From positions 1 through 37,597 of the forward strand of contig JANQQU010000011.1 of NCBI GenBank assembly GCA_028284905.1: 37,597 nt of DNA, read 5' to 3'. Shown here in pieces: positions 5,491-23,246 of the stretch. Source of the DNA: Calditrichia bacterium (GTDB taxonomy: Bacteria; Calditrichota; Calditrichia; RBG-13-44-9; J075). Both the position numbers and the translations under genes were made by a program. Position 1 is the stretch's first letter. Each line of letters starts with the position of its first letter. Below the pieces are notes generated by a model that saw only the letters and a list, made by a program, of their open reading frames with translations, made no database searches and was not told the origin of the DNA.

Positions 5491-5762
5491 ATACAAGGCA
5501 CAATTCCTTTTGCTATATCTATCGCCGCAAAACGAGATCAGCGGCAAGCCACATTTCCTGTGGAAAGTTGGTGGAAGAGAATTTTAAAGAGCTATTTAAC
5601 GCTAAAGCATTGCCTGTTTCGGGATGACGGTCACGGATAGCGATCTATCGGTGTGTGGTGGAAAACCGGAGCGTTAATTGACAAGATCTGCACTTCGCAG
5701 GAAAAATAGCAATTTACCGGAATAGTAATTTGCGAGATGGCCGATTTTCAAAATATTTTTTC

Positions 5763-6332
5763 TTAATTCGCGGAGACATTTACAGAGGAGATTAACTCAA
5801 AATCCGGCAAACTTAGAACGACATAGGCTGGCAGTCCCAATGCTTTCCAAAAGTCTTCAGCGGAGATCATGTTAAAAGCAGCGACAAAGAGAGACATTAC
5901 TGTGCCATGGGAAACAATCATAAGGTTGCCATCTTTTTGCCGGTGAACAAGCTGCTCCACTGTTTTAACAAAGCGTGTTTTCGCTGCGGCGGCAGACTCC
6001 GGTCCATATAATGCTTTGGTCGGTTGCCGAAATATTTCAGTAACCCTGGCTCGGAATGCCTGTTGGCTCATCAATGGCCAAACACTCCTTTCCTGTTCCT
6101 GCAAACCGGCGACCGTTTTAACAGCACCTCCGGTTACTTCGGCAATTATTTCTGCGGTTTCCTGTGCTTTTCTTTCTTCGCTGGACATAATCTGGCAGGG
6201 AGCATATTGTACGAGATCTTTCGCCATTTTTCGGGCATTTACGATACCTTCCGCGGATAACCGCCAGCGAGTTGAGTGCACCCCATCTATAATTTCCGGG
6301 TTGGCGTGCCGGGCCAATATTAGCAGACTCAT
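5763..6332 (-). CDS. Histidine phosphatase family protein
   Basis: A 189-residue member of the phosphoglycerate-mutase-like superfamily, which transfers phosphate through a phospho-His intermediate. The N-terminal motif is LARHANPE (Arg8-His9, with Ala in place of the usual Gly of RHG). SSEERKAQETAEII matches the SxxxRAxxTA region and VSHGTV carries the second catalytic His. The substrate cannot be read from the sequence; SixA-type phosphohistidine phosphatase, sugar-phosphate phosphatase and mutase are all possible. Its ATG overlaps the stop of the upstream gene in an ATGA (6329-6332), implying translational coupling. It is the last gene of a three-gene operon with an unknown protein and a PP2C-like phosphatase. 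Confidence 0.82.
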   Translation of the reverse strand: MSLLILARHANPEIIDGVHSTRWRLSAEGIVNARKMAKDLVQYAPCQIMSSEERKAQETAEIIAEVTGGAVKTVAGLQEQERSVWPLMSQQAFRARVTEIFRQPTKALYGPESAAAAKTRFVKTVEQLVHRQKDGNLMIVSHGTVMSLFVAAFNMISAEDFWKALGLPAYVVLSLPDFELISSVNVSAN

Positions 6333-9411: not shown

Positions 9412-9634
9412 AGGAGAAGAATATATCTTTTGCGTCAATTGTGCTGGTGTGTTAATTTAGTGATGTTGTTTTTTGTGCTGGTACATAAATCGATACAGAA
9501 ATTATCCCTATATTTGCTTATCGATCTCTACCAGCAATAACTCAACCGGAATCAAAATCGTTTTTATGTCACCCCCTTTGGCTGCACTGCCAGCATTTCG
9601 CATATTTGCGGAGCCTAAAACAGAGGTTATTACC

Positions 9635-11836
9635 ATGAAACGCCGATTTACCTTTTTGACCTTTTTCATTTTGTTCTTTAGCATTTTCCCGCCATTGTTT
9701 GCTCAACAACATTCTGTTGCACGCGAGTGGAATGAATTATTACTGGAAGCCATTCGGAACGACTTTGCCCGTCCGACTGTCCATGCCCGTAATTTATTCC
9801 ATACTTCCGTCGCAATGTATGATGCCTGGGCAGTCTACGATAGTAAAGCAGAGACCTATTTGCTCGGCAAATCCGTCGGCGGTTATATTTGCCCGTTTAG
9901 TGGCATTCCGGAACCGCTGGATGTACGGAAAGCCCAGGAAACAGCGATTAGCTATGCATCGTACCGGGTACTCAGCCACCGCTTTCAAAACTCCCCCGGT
10001 GCGGAAGAGTCCCAGGCGCGTTTCGACAGCCTGTTCTCAGTACTCGGGCACGACCCAACCTTTACTATTACCGAATACAGCACCGGCTCGCCGGCCGCAT
10101 TGGGCAACTACATCGCCCTTTGTATCATCAATTTTGGCCATCAGGATGGCAGCAATGAGCAGAACGATTATGCGAACATATTTTACGAGCCATATAATCC
10201 GACCTTGCTCCCGATCGTTCCCGGTAATCCGGATATTATCGATCCCAATCGCTGGCAGCCGCTGACCCTTGATGTTTTCATCGATCAGAGCGGCAATGTT
10301 ATTCCGATAACCACACCGGAATTTCTTAGCCCGGAATGGGGCGTTGTCACTCCCTTTTCGCTTTCCAGATCCGATTTGACCGTTCGCCAAAAGAATGGCA
10401 ATGAATATTGGCTTTACCATGATCCCGGTGATCCTCCCTACATCGACCTGGAAAACAGCGACGCGATGTCCGAAGAATATAAATGGGGATTTGCCCTGGT
10501 TTCCGTTTGGTCCGCCCATCTCGATCCGGCGGATGGCGTTATGTGGGATATTTCCCCCGGTTCGATTGGTAATATTCCAACCTTGCCGCAAACCATTGAA
10601 GGCTTCCGCGATTTTTATGACCTGATTGAAGGTGGCGACCCCAGTCTGGGACATTCGATAAATCCGGTCACCGGAGAGCCATACGAGCCACAGATGGTTC
10701 CCCGGGCAGATTACGCCCGGGTTTTAGCGGAATTCTGGGCAGATGGCCCTGATTCCGAAACGCCACCGGGCCACTGGTTCACTATCCTGAATTATGTGAA
10801 CGATCATCCAATGTTTGAAAAAAGATTTCGGGGAGTCGGCCCCATCCTTGATGATTTGGAATGGGATGTTAAATCATACTTCCTGATGGGTGGTACAATG
10901 CACGATGCTGCCATCTCTGCCTGGGGGATAAAAGGCTACTACGATTACCTCCGTCCGATATCCGCGATTCGCATGATGGCCGATCTCGGGCAAAGCAGCG
11001 ATCCTACGCTCTCCAATTATTCGCCGGGCGGCATCCCACTTATCCCTGGCTACATCGAGGTTGTTCAAGCGGGAGACCCGCTGGCAATCGACAGTACACA
11101 GCATATTGGGAAAATTAAATTACTCGCCTGGAAAGGGCCGGATTATATCTCCGAGCCGGAGACTGATGTCGCCGGTGTTGGCTGGATTCTCGCCGAACGC
11201 TGGTGGCCGTACCAACGCCCGACATTTGTGACACCACCTTTTGCCGGCTACGTTTCCGGACACTCTACTTATTCCCGCGCGGCAGCGGAGGTAATGACAT
11301 TGCTGACCGGCGACGAATTTTTCCCGGGCGGGATGGGCGAATTTCTCGCAGAGAAAAACGAATTTCTGGTATTTGAAGATGGTCCTAGTGTAGACGTTAC
11401 TCTACAATGGGCAACCTATCGGGATGCCTCCGACCAAACCAGCCTCTCTCGTATTTGGGGCGGCATTCATCCTCCAGCAGACGATATTCCTGGCCGCATT
11501 ATCGGGGAGAAAATCGGGGTTGAAGCTTTCGCTTTTGCTGATCGTTACTTCCTCGGCCTGGCAGAGGGAGAAACGCTGCCGCCTTCAACGCGGGTTTTTC
11601 CCAATCCGGTTACCCGGGGCAACACCCTGAAGGTTGAATTGATACTTCCCACGGAAAGTGCCAAAGTAGTCATGTGTAATGTGTTGGGGCAGGTGGTCTA
11701 TTCGACAGAACTATCGATCAATCAAAATCAGGAATACATTCAGGTCGATACTGATAGCTTACCTTCGGGCATCTACCTGGTGCGCATTACCGGCAGTCGC
11801 TGGGATTCCGCGCATAAAATTACCATTGTCCGCTAG
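9635..11836 (+). CDS. Secreted vanadium-dependent haloperoxidase/PAP2-family protein with C-terminal sorting domain
   Basis: A 733-residue exported protein. A Sec signal peptide (MKRRFTFLTFFILFFSIFPP, cleaved near LFAQ) precedes a helical domain. The vanadate/phosphate pocket motifs are in the second half: YVSGHSTYSR near residues 538-547 and SRIWGGIHPPADD near 604-616, the SGH and SRxxxGxHxxxD signatures shared by vanadium haloperoxidases and PAP2 phosphatases. The last ~80 residues form a type IX-style sorting domain (RVFPNPVTRG, SLPSGIYLVRI, HKITIVR). The protein is therefore probably released or surface-anchored. Whether it is a haloperoxidase or a phosphatase is undecided. The ATG at 9635 has AGAGG upstream and creates the signal peptide; longer upstream frames do not. 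Confidence 0.85.
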   Translation: MKRRFTFLTFFILFFSIFPPLFAQQHSVAREWNELLLEAIRNDFARPTVHARNLFHTSVAMYDAWAVYDSKAETYLLGKSVGGYICPFSGIPEPLDVRKAQETAISYASYRVLSHRFQNSPGAEESQARFDSLFSVLGHDPTFTITEYSTGSPAALGNYIALCIINFGHQDGSNEQNDYANIFYEPYNPTLLPIVPGNPDIIDPNRWQPLTLDVFIDQSGNVIPITTPEFLSPEWGVVTPFSLSRSDLTVRQKNGNEYWLYHDPGDPPYIDLENSDAMSEEYKWGFALVSVWSAHLDPADGVMWDISPGSIGNIPTLPQTIEGFRDFYDLIEGGDPSLGHSINPVTGEPYEPQMVPRADYARVLAEFWADGPDSETPPGHWFTILNYVNDHPMFEKRFRGVGPILDDLEWDVKSYFLMGGTMHDAAISAWGIKGYYDYLRPISAIRMMADLGQSSDPTLSNYSPGGIPLIPGYIEVVQAGDPLAIDSTQHIGKIKLLAWKGPDYISEPETDVAGVGWILAERWWPYQRPTFVTPPFAGYVSGHSTYSRAAAEVMTLLTGDEFFPGGMGEFLAEKNEFLVFEDGPSVDVTLQWATYRDASDQTSLSRIWGGIHPPADDIPGRIIGEKIGVEAFAFADRYFLGLAEGETLPPSTRVFPNPVTRGNTLKVELILPTESAKVVMCNVLGQVVYSTELSINQNQEYIQVDTDSLPSGIYLVRITGSRWDSAHKITIVR

Positions 11837-12872: not shown

Positions 12873-13178
12873 TTATCCGGTATGCTGATAAGCGCGCACT
12901 TCGTTTTCAATCTTTTCAGACAATTCATCTTCAGCGATATCCAAATCATAGTCCATCTGTAAACCTAACCAAAATTCCGGAGACATATCAAAAAAGAATG
13001 CTAAACGTAAGGCTGTATCAACTGTTATTCGCCGTTTCCCTTGTACGATTTCATTAATTCTTCTTGCCGGCACCCTGATATCCAGTGCGAGGCGATTTTG
13101 GCTTAATCCCATAGGCTTAAGAAAATCCTCATGAAGAATTTCTCCAGGATGAATCGGCGCTATTTTCTTTTCTCTCAT
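12873..13178 (-). CDS. higA: HigA-type antitoxin
   Basis: The 101-residue DNA-binding antitoxin of a type II toxin-antitoxin module. It begins with the HigA signature APIHPGEILHEDFL, then an XRE helix-turn-helix (GLSQNRLALDIRVPARRINEIVQGKRRI) and the C-terminal FFDMSPEFWLGLQMDYDL segment. HigA binds and blocks HigB and represses the operon. The ATG at 13176-13178 has a strong GGGAG Shine-Dalgarno (13188-13192) that overlaps the higB TAG stop. An upstream TTG at 13208 would overlap higB and is rejected. Strong translation relative to the toxin would fit antitoxin excess. Confidence 0.93.
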   Translation of the reverse strand: MREKKIAPIHPGEILHEDFLKPMGLSQNRLALDIRVPARRINEIVQGKRRITVDTALRLAFFFDMSPEFWLGLQMDYDLDIAEDELSEKIENEVRAYQHTG

Positions 13179-13191
13179 TTCTATCGACTCC

Positions 13192-13473
13192 CTAATGATA
13201 ATCGACAATTTCTACATCAAACGCATCTGCTCCGGACCAAAGAAAACAGATACGCCATTGATCATTAATTCTTATACTATGTTGTCCTTTTCTATCACCT
13301 TTCAAGGCTTCAAGTCTATTGCCGGGAGGAACAAGTAAATCCCTTAAATCCTGCGCCCGATTAATCATTCTAAGCTTCTTAAGTGCAGTTCGTTGAATGT
13401 CCTGGGGGAATTTTTTAACGTATTTTCTTTGAAAAATTCGCTCCGTTTCTTTGCACCTGAAGGACTTAATCAT
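13192..13473 (-). CDS. higB: HigB/RelE-type toxin
   Basis: The 93-residue toxin of the HigBA module, a ribosome-dependent mRNA endonuclease in characterised members. It has the family start MIKSFRCKETERIF, the conserved middle LLVPPGNRLEALKGDRKGQHSIRINDQWRICF and the end VEIVDYH. The order is toxin first, antitoxin second, with 13 nt between them, which is typical for higBA and unlike most other type II modules. No Shine-Dalgarno precedes the ATG at 13471-13473, and the predicted -10 box ends only 5 nt before it, so the transcript may be leaderless and the toxin weakly translated. Confidence 0.93.
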   Translation of the reverse strand: MIKSFRCKETERIFQRKYVKKFPQDIQRTALKKLRMINRAQDLRDLLVPPGNRLEALKGDRKGQHSIRINDQWRICFLWSGADAFDVEIVDYH

Positions 13474-16504: not shown

Positions 16505-17176
16505 ATGAGAATATTAGTATTAACAGCAATACTAGCTTTGGTGATACTGGCCGGCTCCTGCGAGAGTCCCGGCGAGCCGGGTCCGGAACGGGTGATTCGG
16601 GAAAACGGCAGAATTTTTATTGTTGATAGAGTTGGGCAGCAATGGGACGTTACCAGTGCCGAAGAAAAATATGGTATGATCGCCGACGAGTTTCAGTTCG
16701 GTATTGGCAAGAACGCCATTCGCCCGATTTCCGATCCACAATTTATCCACAGCGGCATCTCTTCATTTCCCGATGCGGATGCGACATTTTTGGTCATGGG
16801 TGTCTCGCTGAATGGTGACAATCGTGCTTACCCCATTGATGTAATGAGTCGCCACGAGGTTGTCACAGAAAAGTTTGGTGATGCCTATGTTTCCGTCGCC
16901 TACTGACCGCTGGTAGATTTGGCTGCCGTGTACAGCCGGGAAATTGACGGGGAAATCCTCACCCTGAGCGCCAGCGGATGGACCTATCGGAACACTTTTG
17001 TATTGTATGATTGGGAAACGGAGAGCATGTGGTATCACCTAAGTGGTACGGATGAACTTACCTGCATCAGTGGATTTTATCAGGATCGCACCCTGCCGGA
17101 GTTGCCATCAACTTTAACAAGATGGAATAATTGGGTAAGCCAGTTTCCGGAAACGCGTTTTTTAGATTATCCCTAA
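16505..17176 (+). CDS. DUF3179 lipoprotein with in-frame TGA, candidate selenoprotein
   Basis: The frame runs 223 residues with one TGA at codon 134 (16904-16906). Before the TGA are a lipoprotein-like signal (MRILVLTAILALVILAGSC), then AYPIDVMSRHEVV and VSVAY. After it come PLVDLAAVYSREIDGE, LTLSASGWTYRNTFVLYD, TESMWYH and the end RFLDYP. Across both halves this follows the DUF3179 family pattern, in which the region reads (T/A)(Y/F)CPLC...(F/Y)(D/S)R. The TGA stands exactly where the first Cys of CPLC is expected, and the second Cys is Val. DUF3179 proteins have no established reaction that I know of. I infer selenocysteine insertion because the frame is intact, a SECIS-like hairpin follows, and mnmH is nearby. 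A single TGC-to-TGA nonsense mutation is the alternative; then 16505-16906 would encode a truncated protein. Confidence 0.65.
16911..16944 (+). promoter_or_regulatory. SECIS-like stem-loop downstream of the in-frame TGA
   Basis: GGCTG (16921-16925) pairs with CAGCC (16933-16937) around the loop CCGTGTA. The stem extends with ATTT (16917-16920) pairing to AAAT (16941-16944) across a GGG bulge. The apical loop starts 19 nt after the TGA and contains GTG. Bacterial SECIS elements lie directly downstream of the UGA inside the coding region, with a small G/U-containing apical loop about 16-37 nt away, so the position fits. The helix is short and was judged by eye. Confidence 0.4.
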
Positions 17177-18729: not shown

Positions 18730-21700
18730 TTAAGGCAATGCTTTCAGAATTTCGGCAATGGCGCGGTCCAGTTGCGGATCTTTTCCATCCTGACGGTCTT
18801 TCATGGTATTTTTCAGATAGATGTCCGGAGCGACGCCTTCCAGCTCCAGGTCTTTTCCATCCAGCGAATAACAGCCCCAGGAAGGCAGACGGTAAAAGGA
18901 ACCATCGACCAATCCCTTACCACTGGTAAAAATGATCCAGCGATAGGTTTCCGTACCAACGATTGTCCCTAATTTCAATGTTTTGAATCCATTCGCCGTT
19001 ACTTCCGCATCACTGAGGCTTTGGGCGTTTATTAACAAAACGATCGGTTTGTCACCCGGCGTCCAGTTCGGCTGGGTAGCCGGTTTACCTTCCCGGTATT
19101 TCCATTTCATATATGACTTTTGACTGAGAATTTGCAACACTTTATCGTGCACATTGCCACCGGTGTTATAACGCAGGTCAAGAATTAATCCATCCCGGTA
19201 GTTCTCCTCAGCAGCAACTTCCCGAATAAAATTATTCAATTCTCTTTGTCCCATATTTTTCATGTGGATGTAGGCAATACGTTCTTTGCCCTGCTCATCG
19301 ACCCGGCGCTGGTTATCAGCCACCCACTCATCATAGAGGTTGCCGCGAAAAGAGAATCTGCTTTGCGGGTGTATTTTCAGCGGGAACGTTTTTCCGCTCC
19401 GGCGCAGGGTGAGGGTCATTTCCTCCGGGCGGGATGTGCAGTAGAAATATTTTTCCCGGTTCTCCGCGGCATCAACGGATTGCCCGTTAACCGCGACCAA
19501 TTCGTCACCTTTCCGAATATCAAGTCCAGTTTTATCACTGGCGGAATTTGCGACCACCCGATCTACGATAAACGGCTGATTATTATCGAAAATAATCCCG
19601 CTATGCATGCTGCCGCTTTTGTAAAACACTTCTTCTTCCTTCCCGGATGACCGGAAGGCAAGGTGTGAAGCATTCAGTTCACCAAGCATATCATTGAGTA
19701 AGGTTCGCAGGTTGGCGCGATTTTTTATATGAGGCAAAAATTCACTGTATTTTTTCCCCATCGCTTTCCAATCTACCCCATGAAAATTTTCATCGTAAAA
19801 ATTCTCCTGCAGATTTGCCCAGGTTTCATGATACATCTGATGAAAAACGGCCTCGAGGTTGCGCTGGAATTTATGGGAAATGTCAATTTTCTCGACTTTG
19901 TTACCACTTACTTTCAGTGTATGAATATTCCCGCTGATCAGCACGTAGGTCTTCGACTTGCCCGATGCTATCGCGCTGACATTTTTTGCTCCCTTAATTT
20001 TCTCTGTCTTGGAAGATTCAAAAGGCTCATAAACGGTTTTCCAGACATGATATCCATCCCCGTCATGATTGGAAGAATACAGCACAATCGTTTTTTCGCC
20101 ATCTTTTAAGACATAAGGATTATATTGCTGACCACTGCCCGGAGAGACGCGCTCCACCCGCTGCAGTGCGTTTTCAAACTCGATTTCGACAACAAGGCCG
20201 GGCTTTTCCGCCTTTTCCTCTTTATCATCGGATTTATCTTTATCCTTTTTCTTATCATCCTTTTTCTTATCATCCGCTTTTGCGAAAAGGCTGTCATATT
20301 CGCTGGAACGGAACGCCTCCTGCATGCGGGTTAGCGGTACCCGCCAGACATGCACATTTTTCCCACCGTACGGGTAATTCGGTTGTTCCCGGTCGCTATG
20401 AAAGTAGAGATACTTTCCGTCCGGGGACCAATAAGGCGCGCTTTCCGAAACGCTGGTTTTGAAGAGGGGACGGGTATTACCAGTCTTCGTATCGAAGATA
20501 ATAATATCCTGCTCAAAATTCTCAAAAATGGTAAATGCGATATAGCGATCATCCGGAGAAAACACCGGCATCGGATTATAGAATCCCCAGAGCTCATCGC
20601 GGGCAATTGTTTCGCTTTTGTACGTTTTCAAATCCATTAAACGGACTTCATGTTTGCCGCTGAGATATACGCCCTTTTCGCGCTTACTGTCCCAGGTCAA
20701 ATTTCGGTTGTTTTGCTCATCCCGGGTAATTTGCACTTCTTTCTGCTGACCGCGCGCATCAATGCGATACCAGTTTAGCCAGCCATTTTCATCGGTTTGA
20801 TTAAAGAGAATCGTTTCATTGTCGTCCATCCAGACAACTTCTATCACCCGTCCCTGCGCATGGGTGGGCATCTGGCGCACGAACTTTCCCTTCAGGTCAC
20901 TGACAAACAGTTCACCCCGGGCAACAAAGGCAAATTTTTTGTCATCCGGAGAAATGTCAAATGCGGTAATCTTTCCCCGGGTATTAAATTCCCGGGACAG
21001 GGAAAGGGTATTATTTTCGACCATACGGATCTTTAGCAGCTGCGTCTTGCCACTGGCAGTATCGTAGGTATACAGCTGATAGCCTTTTTCGAAAACTACT
21101 GTCTTTCCGTCAGCGGAAACCCGGGGCGTCTTCAGGGAATGCTTGAAACGGGTCAACTGCCTGGGTGAGTCATTCTCCAGGGTATATAGATTAAACTCAT
21201 TATTTCCCTCATCAGACAAGTAATAAAGCTTTCCATTCCGGTCAATTGTCGGGGCGAAATCCTTCCCCCGAAAATCCGTCAATTGTTTGAATTCACCGGT
21301 TTTCGGATTGTATTGTTTGATGTCCGGATTAAAATCACCGCGGTAGCGTTTCCGCTGGGGATAAATGAAACTCTCCCAGCTATCAGTAAAATAATAAGCT
21401 TCGCTACCCGGATCTTCCACAACACCATGAATGGTATTAAAATGATGCTTGAAGAGGCGAACCGGCGTCCCTCCTTCCCGGGAAACCTTATAAGCGGTGA
21501 AGCGATTGTAGCGATTCGAGGTAAAATGAATCCATTTGGAATCCCAGGACCAGCTTTCCACCTGGTCGAATCCGTCATTATAGGTTAGCTGACGAATATC
21601 ACCTCCCCCGGCCGGCATCAGGTAAATATTCTGATTGCCGTCTTGCGTGCCCGTAAAAGCAATCCATTTTCCATCCGGGGAAAAATCCGGGTGTGTCTCT

Positions 21701-21891
21701 CTACCGTCCATCGCGGTTAAACGAAAGGCATTGCCCCCGTTCGCCGGCACCTGCCAGAGATCATCTGCATAGCTAAACACAACCGTTTCACCATCCGGTG
21801 ATATTGTCGGATGTGTCGTAAAATATGCGTCATCATTTGCAAAAAGAGTTATCGTTGTTATCAACCAGAAACACAGTAAGCGGTATATCAT
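18730..21891 (-). CDS. Tricorn-like protease (S41 family) with beta-propeller and PDZ domains
   Basis: A 1053-residue exported protease related to tricorn. A signal peptide (MIYRLLCFWLITTITLFA) precedes a long beta-propeller region of WD40/TolB-type repeats (HPTISPDGETVVFSY, HPDFSPDGKWIAFTG, APYWSPDGKYLYFHS). A Lys/Asp-rich linker follows (KADDKKKDDKKKDKDKSDD, about 530-555). The C-terminal third has the tricorn core with ELNASHLAF, containing the Ser-His pair, then a PDZ domain (DKTGLDIRKGDELVAVNGQ). The S41 part follows, with LINAQSLSDAEVTANGF carrying the nucleophile Ser and ELEGVAPDI near the end. Such enzymes degrade oligopeptides. The ATG at 21889-21891 has GGGAG upstream. The gene is alone on the minus strand. 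Confidence 0.92.
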   Translation of the reverse strand: MIYRLLCFWLITTITLFANDDAYFTTHPTISPDGETVVFSYADDLWQVPANGGNAFRLTAMDGRETHPDFSPDGKWIAFTGTQDGNQNIYLMPAGGGDIRQLTYNDGFDQVESWSWDSKWIHFTSNRYNRFTAYKVSREGGTPVRLFKHHFNTIHGVVEDPGSEAYYFTDSWESFIYPQRKRYRGDFNPDIKQYNPKTGEFKQLTDFRGKDFAPTIDRNGKLYYLSDEGNNEFNLYTLENDSPRQLTRFKHSLKTPRVSADGKTVVFEKGYQLYTYDTASGKTQLLKIRMVENNTLSLSREFNTRGKITAFDISPDDKKFAFVARGELFVSDLKGKFVRQMPTHAQGRVIEVVWMDDNETILFNQTDENGWLNWYRIDARGQQKEVQITRDEQNNRNLTWDSKREKGVYLSGKHEVRLMDLKTYKSETIARDELWGFYNPMPVFSPDDRYIAFTIFENFEQDIIIFDTKTGNTRPLFKTSVSESAPYWSPDGKYLYFHSDREQPNYPYGGKNVHVWRVPLTRMQEAFRSSEYDSLFAKADDKKKDDKKKDKDKSDDKEEKAEKPGLVVEIEFENALQRVERVSPGSGQQYNPYVLKDGEKTIVLYSSNHDGDGYHVWKTVYEPFESSKTEKIKGAKNVSAIASGKSKTYVLISGNIHTLKVSGNKVEKIDISHKFQRNLEAVFHQMYHETWANLQENFYDENFHGVDWKAMGKKYSEFLPHIKNRANLRTLLNDMLGELNASHLAFRSSGKEEEVFYKSGSMHSGIIFDNNQPFIVDRVVANSASDKTGLDIRKGDELVAVNGQSVDAAENREKYFYCTSRPEEMTLTLRRSGKTFPLKIHPQSRFSFRGNLYDEWVADNQRRVDEQGKERIAYIHMKNMGQRELNNFIREVAAEENYRDGLILDLRYNTGGNVHDKVLQILSQKSYMKWKYREGKPATQPNWTPGDKPIVLLINAQSLSDAEVTANGFKTLKLGTIVGTETYRWIIFTSGKGLVDGSFYRLPSWGCYSLDGKDLELEGVAPDIYLKNTMKDRQDGKDPQLDRAIAEILKALP

Positions 21892-22178: not shown

Positions 22179-23246
22179 GTGGCTTCGAAAATTGAACATA
22201 TAGAAATCGCAGAATTTATCCAGTTGGCAGAGCGTCATCCAGTATTTGATGTGCGCACGCCGGCGGAGTTTGCAGATGGCCACATTCCCGGCGCAATCAA
22301 CCTGCCCTTGTTTGACAATAACGAGCGTGCGGAAATCGGCACGCTTTACAAGAAACAGGGCCGGCAGGCGGCTATTTTACAAGGGCTGGATTTTGTCGGA
22401 CCGAAAATGCGCAAGATGGTCGAATCCGTCATGGCACAAACCAGCGAGAAAACCGTGCTGCTTCATTGCTGGCGCGGTGGGATGCGCAGCGGTAGTGTCG
22501 CCTGGCTGTTGAGCTTCAATGAATACCGGGTGATCCTCCTGAAAGGCGGTTATAAAGCTTATCGTCGTCATGTTCTTGACGCCTTTCGTATTCCCCTGCA
22601 GGTATACATTCTTAGCGGCTATACCGGTTCCGGAAAAACGGCGATTTTGCATTCCCTGCAAGCAGCCGGGGAGCAAATTGTAGATCTGGAGGGATTGGCC
22701 AATCACAAGGGATCGTCTTTCGGTGGATTGGGAGAGGCGCCGCAGCCCACACAGCAACAGTTCGAGAACGATTTGGCACTGGCACTACGGGAATTGGATC
22801 CCTCCCGCCCGGTTTGGCTGGAAGATGAAAGCAAGAAAGTCGGCTGGCGAATTATTCCGGAAGATCTCTGGTCGCAAATGCGCAATGCCCGGGTATTTTT
22901 CCTGAATATGCCCGCCCATCTCCGGGTGGAAAGGCTGATTGGCGATTACGGAAGCTTCAGCGAAACAGAACTGGAATCCGCCATCCTCCGCCTGGAAAAA
23001 CGGTTGGGTAACCTGAATATGCGACAATCAATCGAGGCTTTGGCCAAAGGTGATTTGCGTACCTGCACGGACATACTGCTTCAGCATTATTATGATAAAA
23101 CCTATCTGCATGGTCTTTCCAAACGGGACCAGTCCCAGGTTTCGAAAATCGATACCGAAACACTTGTGCCGGAAGAGAATGCCCGGCTGCTCATCAAAGC
23201 CAGTCAGTCTTTAAATAGCCAGATGATAACACCGATATTGAAATAA
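22179..23246 (+). CDS. mnmH: tRNA 2-selenouridine synthase
   Basis: MnmH (SelU/YbbB) replaces the sulfur of 2-thiouridine at the tRNA wobble position with selenium, using selenophosphate made by SelD. Residues 1-130 are a rhodanese domain with VFDVRTPAEFADGHIPGAI and the catalytic Cys97 in HCWRGGMRSG, the same number as in E. coli YbbB. A P-loop domain follows with SGYTGSGKTAIL near 146-157. KGSSFGGLGEAPQPTQQ and WLEDESKKVGW are also family hallmarks. The start is a GTG at 22179 with AAAGG 7 nt upstream. The length, 355 residues, is normal. Its presence implies selenophosphate synthesis elsewhere in the genome. Confidence 0.95.
   Translation: MASKIEHIEIAEFIQLAERHPVFDVRTPAEFADGHIPGAINLPLFDNNERAEIGTLYKKQGRQAAILQGLDFVGPKMRKMVESVMAQTSEKTVLLHCWRGGMRSGSVAWLLSFNEYRVILLKGGYKAYRRHVLDAFRIPLQVYILSGYTGSGKTAILHSLQAAGEQIVDLEGLANHKGSSFGGLGEAPQPTQQQFENDLALALRELDPSRPVWLEDESKKVGWRIIPEDLWSQMRNARVFFLNMPAHLRVERLIGDYGSFSETELESAILRLEKRLGNLNMRQSIEALAKGDLRTCTDILLQHYYDKTYLHGLSKRDQSQVSKIDTETLVPEENARLLIKASQSLNSQMITPILK

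Follow-up and report, generated by a model that had tools for sequence, protein, structure and literature searches.

The window analyzed here, the whole stretch of 37,597 nucleotides, carries a gene of the DUF3179 family (PF11376) whose translated frame contains exactly one internal stop, a TGA in the context SVAY*PLVDL (Table 1). Residues 71–221, which extend on both sides of the TGA, match PF11376 (E=2.6e-33, 116.1 bits, Pfam cut-off 27). In the family alignment, the TGA coincides with the invariant first Cys of DUF3179, and the fourth motif position is occupied by Val. The earlier note had described a single TGA splitting a DUF3179 frame exactly where CPLC has its first Cys, giving UPLV and leaving no Sec–Cys pair, and each of these points is borne out by the translation, the profile match on both sides and the alignment.

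Table 1. Features of the window discussed in the text
Feature	Position	Strand	Description and basis
Sec-DUF3179 gene (predicted)	16505..17176	+	223 residues, Sec at 134, then TAA; frame, PF11376 match, single-module clade
TGA read as selenocysteine (predicted, UPLV)	16904..16906	+	codon is TGA throughout 62 distinct single-module homologues and in two paralogues
SECIS-like hairpin, TGGCTG CCGTGTA CAGCCG	16920..16938	+	loop from 19 nt past the TGA; codon constraint, base-pair covariation
Putative signal peptide ending in lipobox-like AGSC (Cys19)	16505..16561	+	hydrophobic N-terminal helix; by inspection
mnmH (selU), tRNA 2-selenouridine synthase	22179..23246	+	NF008750, 385 bits; independent sign of selenium use
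Secreted protein	9473-11836	+	vanadium chloroperoxidase-like helical-bundle match, DUF6851, Por secretion tail
HTH_3 antitoxin-like gene adjoining HigB-like toxin gene	12873-13473	-	toxin gene, PF05015
Tricorn-like protease	18730-21891	-	WD40-like propeller repeats, PDZ, peptidase S41

The PF11376 match spans profile positions 3–148 of 292 and thus covers only its N-terminal half, the gene being a one-module version of DUF3179. Ordinary DUF3179 proteins arise by tandem duplication of a module of ~130 residues, with the Cys or Sec in the first copy only. In 24 full-length sequences, the N- and C-terminal halves were found to be homologous (probability 98.9; E 3.9e-17, a value for this single comparison). 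In a two-module paralogue, the predicted secondary structure repeats in line with the duplication. The window gene does not have this architecture: its stop comes after the first module, leaving a single N-type module with an N-terminal extension. The two-module proteins, with either Cys (CPLC, CTLC, CPLT) or Sec (UPLC, UPLA), share with the window protein a homologous catalytic module and the invariant Cys/Sec, Glu, Ser-Gly and Trp positions, but differ from it in having a second, Cys-less module and in falling into separate tree groups. In unrooted trees of the catalytic module, the one-module branch comes out as monophyletic, with 100/100 support for its separation, while a second group (95–98/89–94) is made up of the two-module Sec proteins.

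Sixteen short homologues were aligned, and a scan based on them, taking a single genome for each species, yielded 56 loci in Calditrichota, KSB1, Latescibacterota, Desulfobacterota, Nitrospirota and a few others (depositors' labels). The search patterns, SGW[TV]Y..TF and D.TGK.WD[VI]T, leave out the Sec site, so that the scan carries no bias towards TGA. TGA occupies the site in 62 distinct single-module genes, the sole departure among those scored being a third tandem copy in one genome (Ser-Gly), and neither TAA nor TAG is found there among single-module homologues. By phylum sample, strong matches carry TGA in 5/5 cases from Desulfobacterota, 3/3 from Nitrospirota and 23/23 from the phylum of genome G063. 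Within the genome of the window, three of the four DUF3179 genes are interrupted once by TGA, in each case at the codon in question (UPLV in the window and on contig C39, UPLA on C85), and the fourth reads CTLC without a stop. Downstream of the TGA, purifying selection is evident, with a median pN of 0.22 and a median pS of 0.74 over 26 comparisons. Seen in isolation, one gene with a single stop could equally be a Cys gene that has become a pseudogene, suffered a nonsense mutation or been misread in sequencing, but this reading is refuted by the conservation of the same TGA in distinct genes of several phyla and in two paralogues, with no other stop codon at the site and a conserved downstream half, and its probability is negligible.

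Cys at the position of the TGA was found in the two-module Cys proteins and in one divergent single-module protein (L207 in G706; CILA, in the context VYCILAD), which groups with the single-module clade. The statement that the branch has no Cys counterpart at all is ruled out by this relative, and Sec is therefore the rule in the single-module branch without being absolute.

The 8.55-Mb genome, in which the window is contig C10, contains the machinery for selenocysteine insertion. Profile searches identified selB (332.7 bits, 349.5 bits with its C-terminal part), selA (531.6 bits, on contig C46, where the gene is cut by the contig end, with an N-terminal piece on C28) and selD (388.6 bits), and a tRNA-Sec with anticodon TCA is present. 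The SelD protein (L025, G000:C21:22816-23739, - strand) is a Sec protein itself, with the motif TCAGUASK. In addition, the presence of mnmH in the window indicates selenium use in tRNA, on top of that in proteins. Reassignment of TGA to an ordinary amino acid would likewise open the frame once the codon is read as a residue, but four of the 22 confident window genes terminate at TGA, from which we take the code not to be reassigned; since TGA moreover occurs only at the Cys site and tRNA-Sec and SelB are present, reassignment deserves next to no credence.

The distribution of selA follows that of the TGA genes. The Calditrichota sample comprises 12 genomes having DUF3179 genes with TGA and seven having Cys forms only; selA exceeded the cut-off in 11/12 of the former versus 0/7 of the latter (p=1.6e-4, Calditrichota with DUF3179). 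In the remaining TGA genome, G010, which carries a UPLC gene, selA was not found in a fragmented assembly of 540 contigs. Furthermore, selA was over the cut-off in 31/34 other carrier genomes searched. The proposal of a candidate selenoprotein, made originally from the letters of the window, is supported by the machinery (selA, selB, selD and tRNA-Sec), by TGA rather than TGC or TGT at the codon in relatives, and by the conserved downstream half; no further damage to the frame was found, the related genes sharing the same single TGA.

Further evidence comes from a SECIS-like hairpin downstream of the TGA. Published rules for bacterial SECIS elements (bSECIS) place the loop 16–37 nt past the UGA, with a stem of 4–16 bp, a G as the first or second loop nucleotide and an MFE of at most -7.5 kcal/mol. 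The window hairpin, a 27-nt element with an MFE of -8.4 kcal/mol, a 6-bp stem containing one G-U pair and a 7-nt loop, is borderline by these rules, its G being at the third loop position instead of the first two. The single-sequence fold of 71 nt downstream of the window TGA was not significant, so that the case for a SECIS is carried by comparative evidence only; an Rfam search of the window returned nothing. Nearly all members encode the residues L-(A/T)-A-V-Y-S-R past the TGA, and the codons used for them are constrained: Val is encoded by GTG in 61/62 genes, where GTG otherwise makes up 31% of the Val codons, and Tyr by TAC in 56/59, compared with 47% in the rest of these genes.

The stem occurs in two registers. 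In the Calditrichota/KSB1 type, the codons GCT-GCC...AGC-CGN give a UGGCUG/CAGCCG stem, while in the Desulfobacterota/Nitrospirota type, GCG-GCT...AGC-CGC gives a GCGGCU/AGCCGC stem, encoding the same residues by other synonymous codons. Position +18 (A/G) tracks the synonymous Ser codons AGT/AGC at +32 (Fisher p=0.0034), and the outer pair is altered on both sides in both Desulfoluna genes, giving UCGGCU/AGCCGA. Against synonymous shuffles, the Desulfobacterota/Nitrospirota type folds far better, with a mean z of -3.6, and the homologues shown agree with all the bSECIS rules; the Calditrichota/KSB1 type, the window included, is weaker (mean z -0.96) and agrees with them only loosely. The hairpin p-values are optimistic, since related sequences are not independent. 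As read from these alignments, the choice among synonymous codons creates the hairpin in two different registers, providing a clean natural example of SECIS evolution under coding constraint.

On the combined computational evidence of frame, TGA conservation, machinery and hairpin constraint, there can be very little doubt that selenocysteine is inserted at the TGA of the window gene, and the selenoprotein reading of the gene as a whole is, in our judgment, highly probable. The gene almost certainly encodes a small membrane-anchored selenoprotein, made by reading through a stop at its predicted active site. Standard gene callers would cut the gene to a lipoprotein of ~133 residues, making mis-annotation likely. 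Such a truncated product with a role of its own at low selenium, the TGA acting mainly as a selenium-dependent switch, might be considered, given that any Sec-UGA yields some truncated product and that the N-terminal extension shows good conservation in places. The most conserved residues, however, lie at and just past the TGA, and truncation would remove a large part of a confidently predicted beta fold, and we regard a switch as very improbable.

At the N-terminus, Cys19 follows a hydrophobic segment and is invariant in 16/16 aligned genes; the lipobox-like AGSC of the window protein has Ala at -3. Because of this invariant Cys, the window protein is probably a lipoprotein, as judged by inspection and as the earlier note had also proposed.

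Conservation around the selenocysteine suggests how the protein may work. Sec134, Pro135, Leu136, Glu118 and Ser-Gly-Trp 157–159 are invariant in 60 aligned single-module genes, while His117 is present in 49/60 and Cys187 in only 29/60. The fourth motif position varies among V, I, A, E, Q, R, K and S, with C or T in 0/60. Besides the presumably lipidated Cys, no conserved thiol partner for Sec is found in these 60 genes; therefore Sec, if redox-active, would have to be resolved from outside. In the proposed mechanism, SelB, guided by the hairpin ~19 nt past the UGA, would put selenocysteine at residue 134 (UPLV), and translation would then run on to the TAA, producing an envelope lipoprotein of ~220 residues consisting of a single DUF3179 module. 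Sec might serve as the nucleophile of a thiol/selenol reductase or peroxidase and, with no conserved resolving Cys, be regenerated by an external thiol. Such a one-selenol cycle is suggested by the invariance of Sec-Pro-Leu and Glu118 together with the variable fourth position and the patchy Cys187. One-Cys peroxiredoxins and glutathione-peroxidase-like one-selenol enzymes likewise use a lone selenol or thiol with no neighboring resolving Cys and need an external thiol; the likeness is one of mechanism only, with no sequence or fold relation detected.

Alternatively, the Sec of this selenoprotein could be a metal ligand or a non-redox nucleophile that binds metal, mercury or electrophiles. A missing resolving thiol would suit such a role, and the nearby His117 and the invariant Glu118 are possible partners; furthermore, ordinary DUF3179 proteins use CPLC, CTLC or CPLT, so that the family at large can do without a second thiol too. 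His117 is not invariant, however, and no heavy-metal resistance genes were noted among the neighbors examined, which leaves this role a serious but rather unlikely alternative. An envelope selenol reductase or peroxidase resolved by an external thiol is the function that we tentatively propose from the conservation pattern, short of an even chance. PDB fold searches with one-module and two-module models gave no significant match, nor did a sequence search of the PDB, and NCBIfam contains no model for the one-module gene. No conserved operon or neighborhood was found in general, the gene usually standing alone or in tandem copies.

DUF3179 (PF11376) has been listed by two reviews as a selenoprotein family with the motif UxxC/T, a listing traced to Zhang and Gladyshev 2007 and the Olavius algarvensis Delta 1 symbiont (PMC9312934, PMC13188914). 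The window gene therefore does not represent a new selenoprotein family. The earlier note had left it undecided whether Sec members were on record: Sec DUF3179 proteins are already catalogued, and the one-module branch departs from their UxxC/T motif. The catalogued proteins belong to the same Pfam family and likewise have Sec in place of the leading Cys of CPLC, whereas the one-module branch is distinguished by its single module, its putative lipobox, the lack of C or T at the fourth position and Sec as the rule. The open-licence papers searched mention neither a single-module, near-Sec-only branch without C/T nor the module duplication, a silence that is weak evidence. As far as checked, what is new is a one-module, probably lipoprotein, almost exclusively Sec branch with the motif UPL[V/I/A/E/Q/R/K/S] and no CxxC partner.

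Reviews note that Cys homologues exist for nearly all selenoproteins and that Cys/Sec pairing is one of the main ways of discovering them. We consider it quite possible, if somewhat below evens, that the branch is a distinct near-obligate selenoprotein subfamily: a one-module envelope lipoprotein of several phyla with almost no Cys counterpart, a lone selenol, a fold lacking any solved relative and, perhaps, undescribed chemistry. A clade with Sec as its norm lends itself to the question of what Sec can do and Cys cannot. The single-module gene is present in two named Desulfoluna genomes, those of D. butyratoxydans and D. spongiiphila, which puts experimental work within reach.

Several loci depart from the common pattern. 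The Ser-Gly copy mentioned above (L058, about 5653-6297, + strand; G003:C6:314652-315296) adjoins two Sec copies and has Ser-Gly in place of Sec-Pro (AVYSGFF), and is probably a pseudo-enzyme. The same genome contains a divergent DUF3179-like gene (L066, G003:C21:9507-10178, - strand) whose TGA is embedded in LTFUVVCNS and which may represent another Sec branch, one with UxxC. A match in G031 that had been flagged for TGA was rejected, its motif being CTLC and its TGAs sitting upstream in the frame. On plasmids, the search found one distant DUF3179 only. Elsewhere in the window, the adjoining HTH_3 and HigB-like genes are likely a HigBA toxin–antitoxin pair. In three Calditrichia loci only (L103, L105, L129), Omp28-like/PEGA secreted proteins lie downstream of the Sec gene, and the Omp28-like proteins at L105 contain CxxC motifs.
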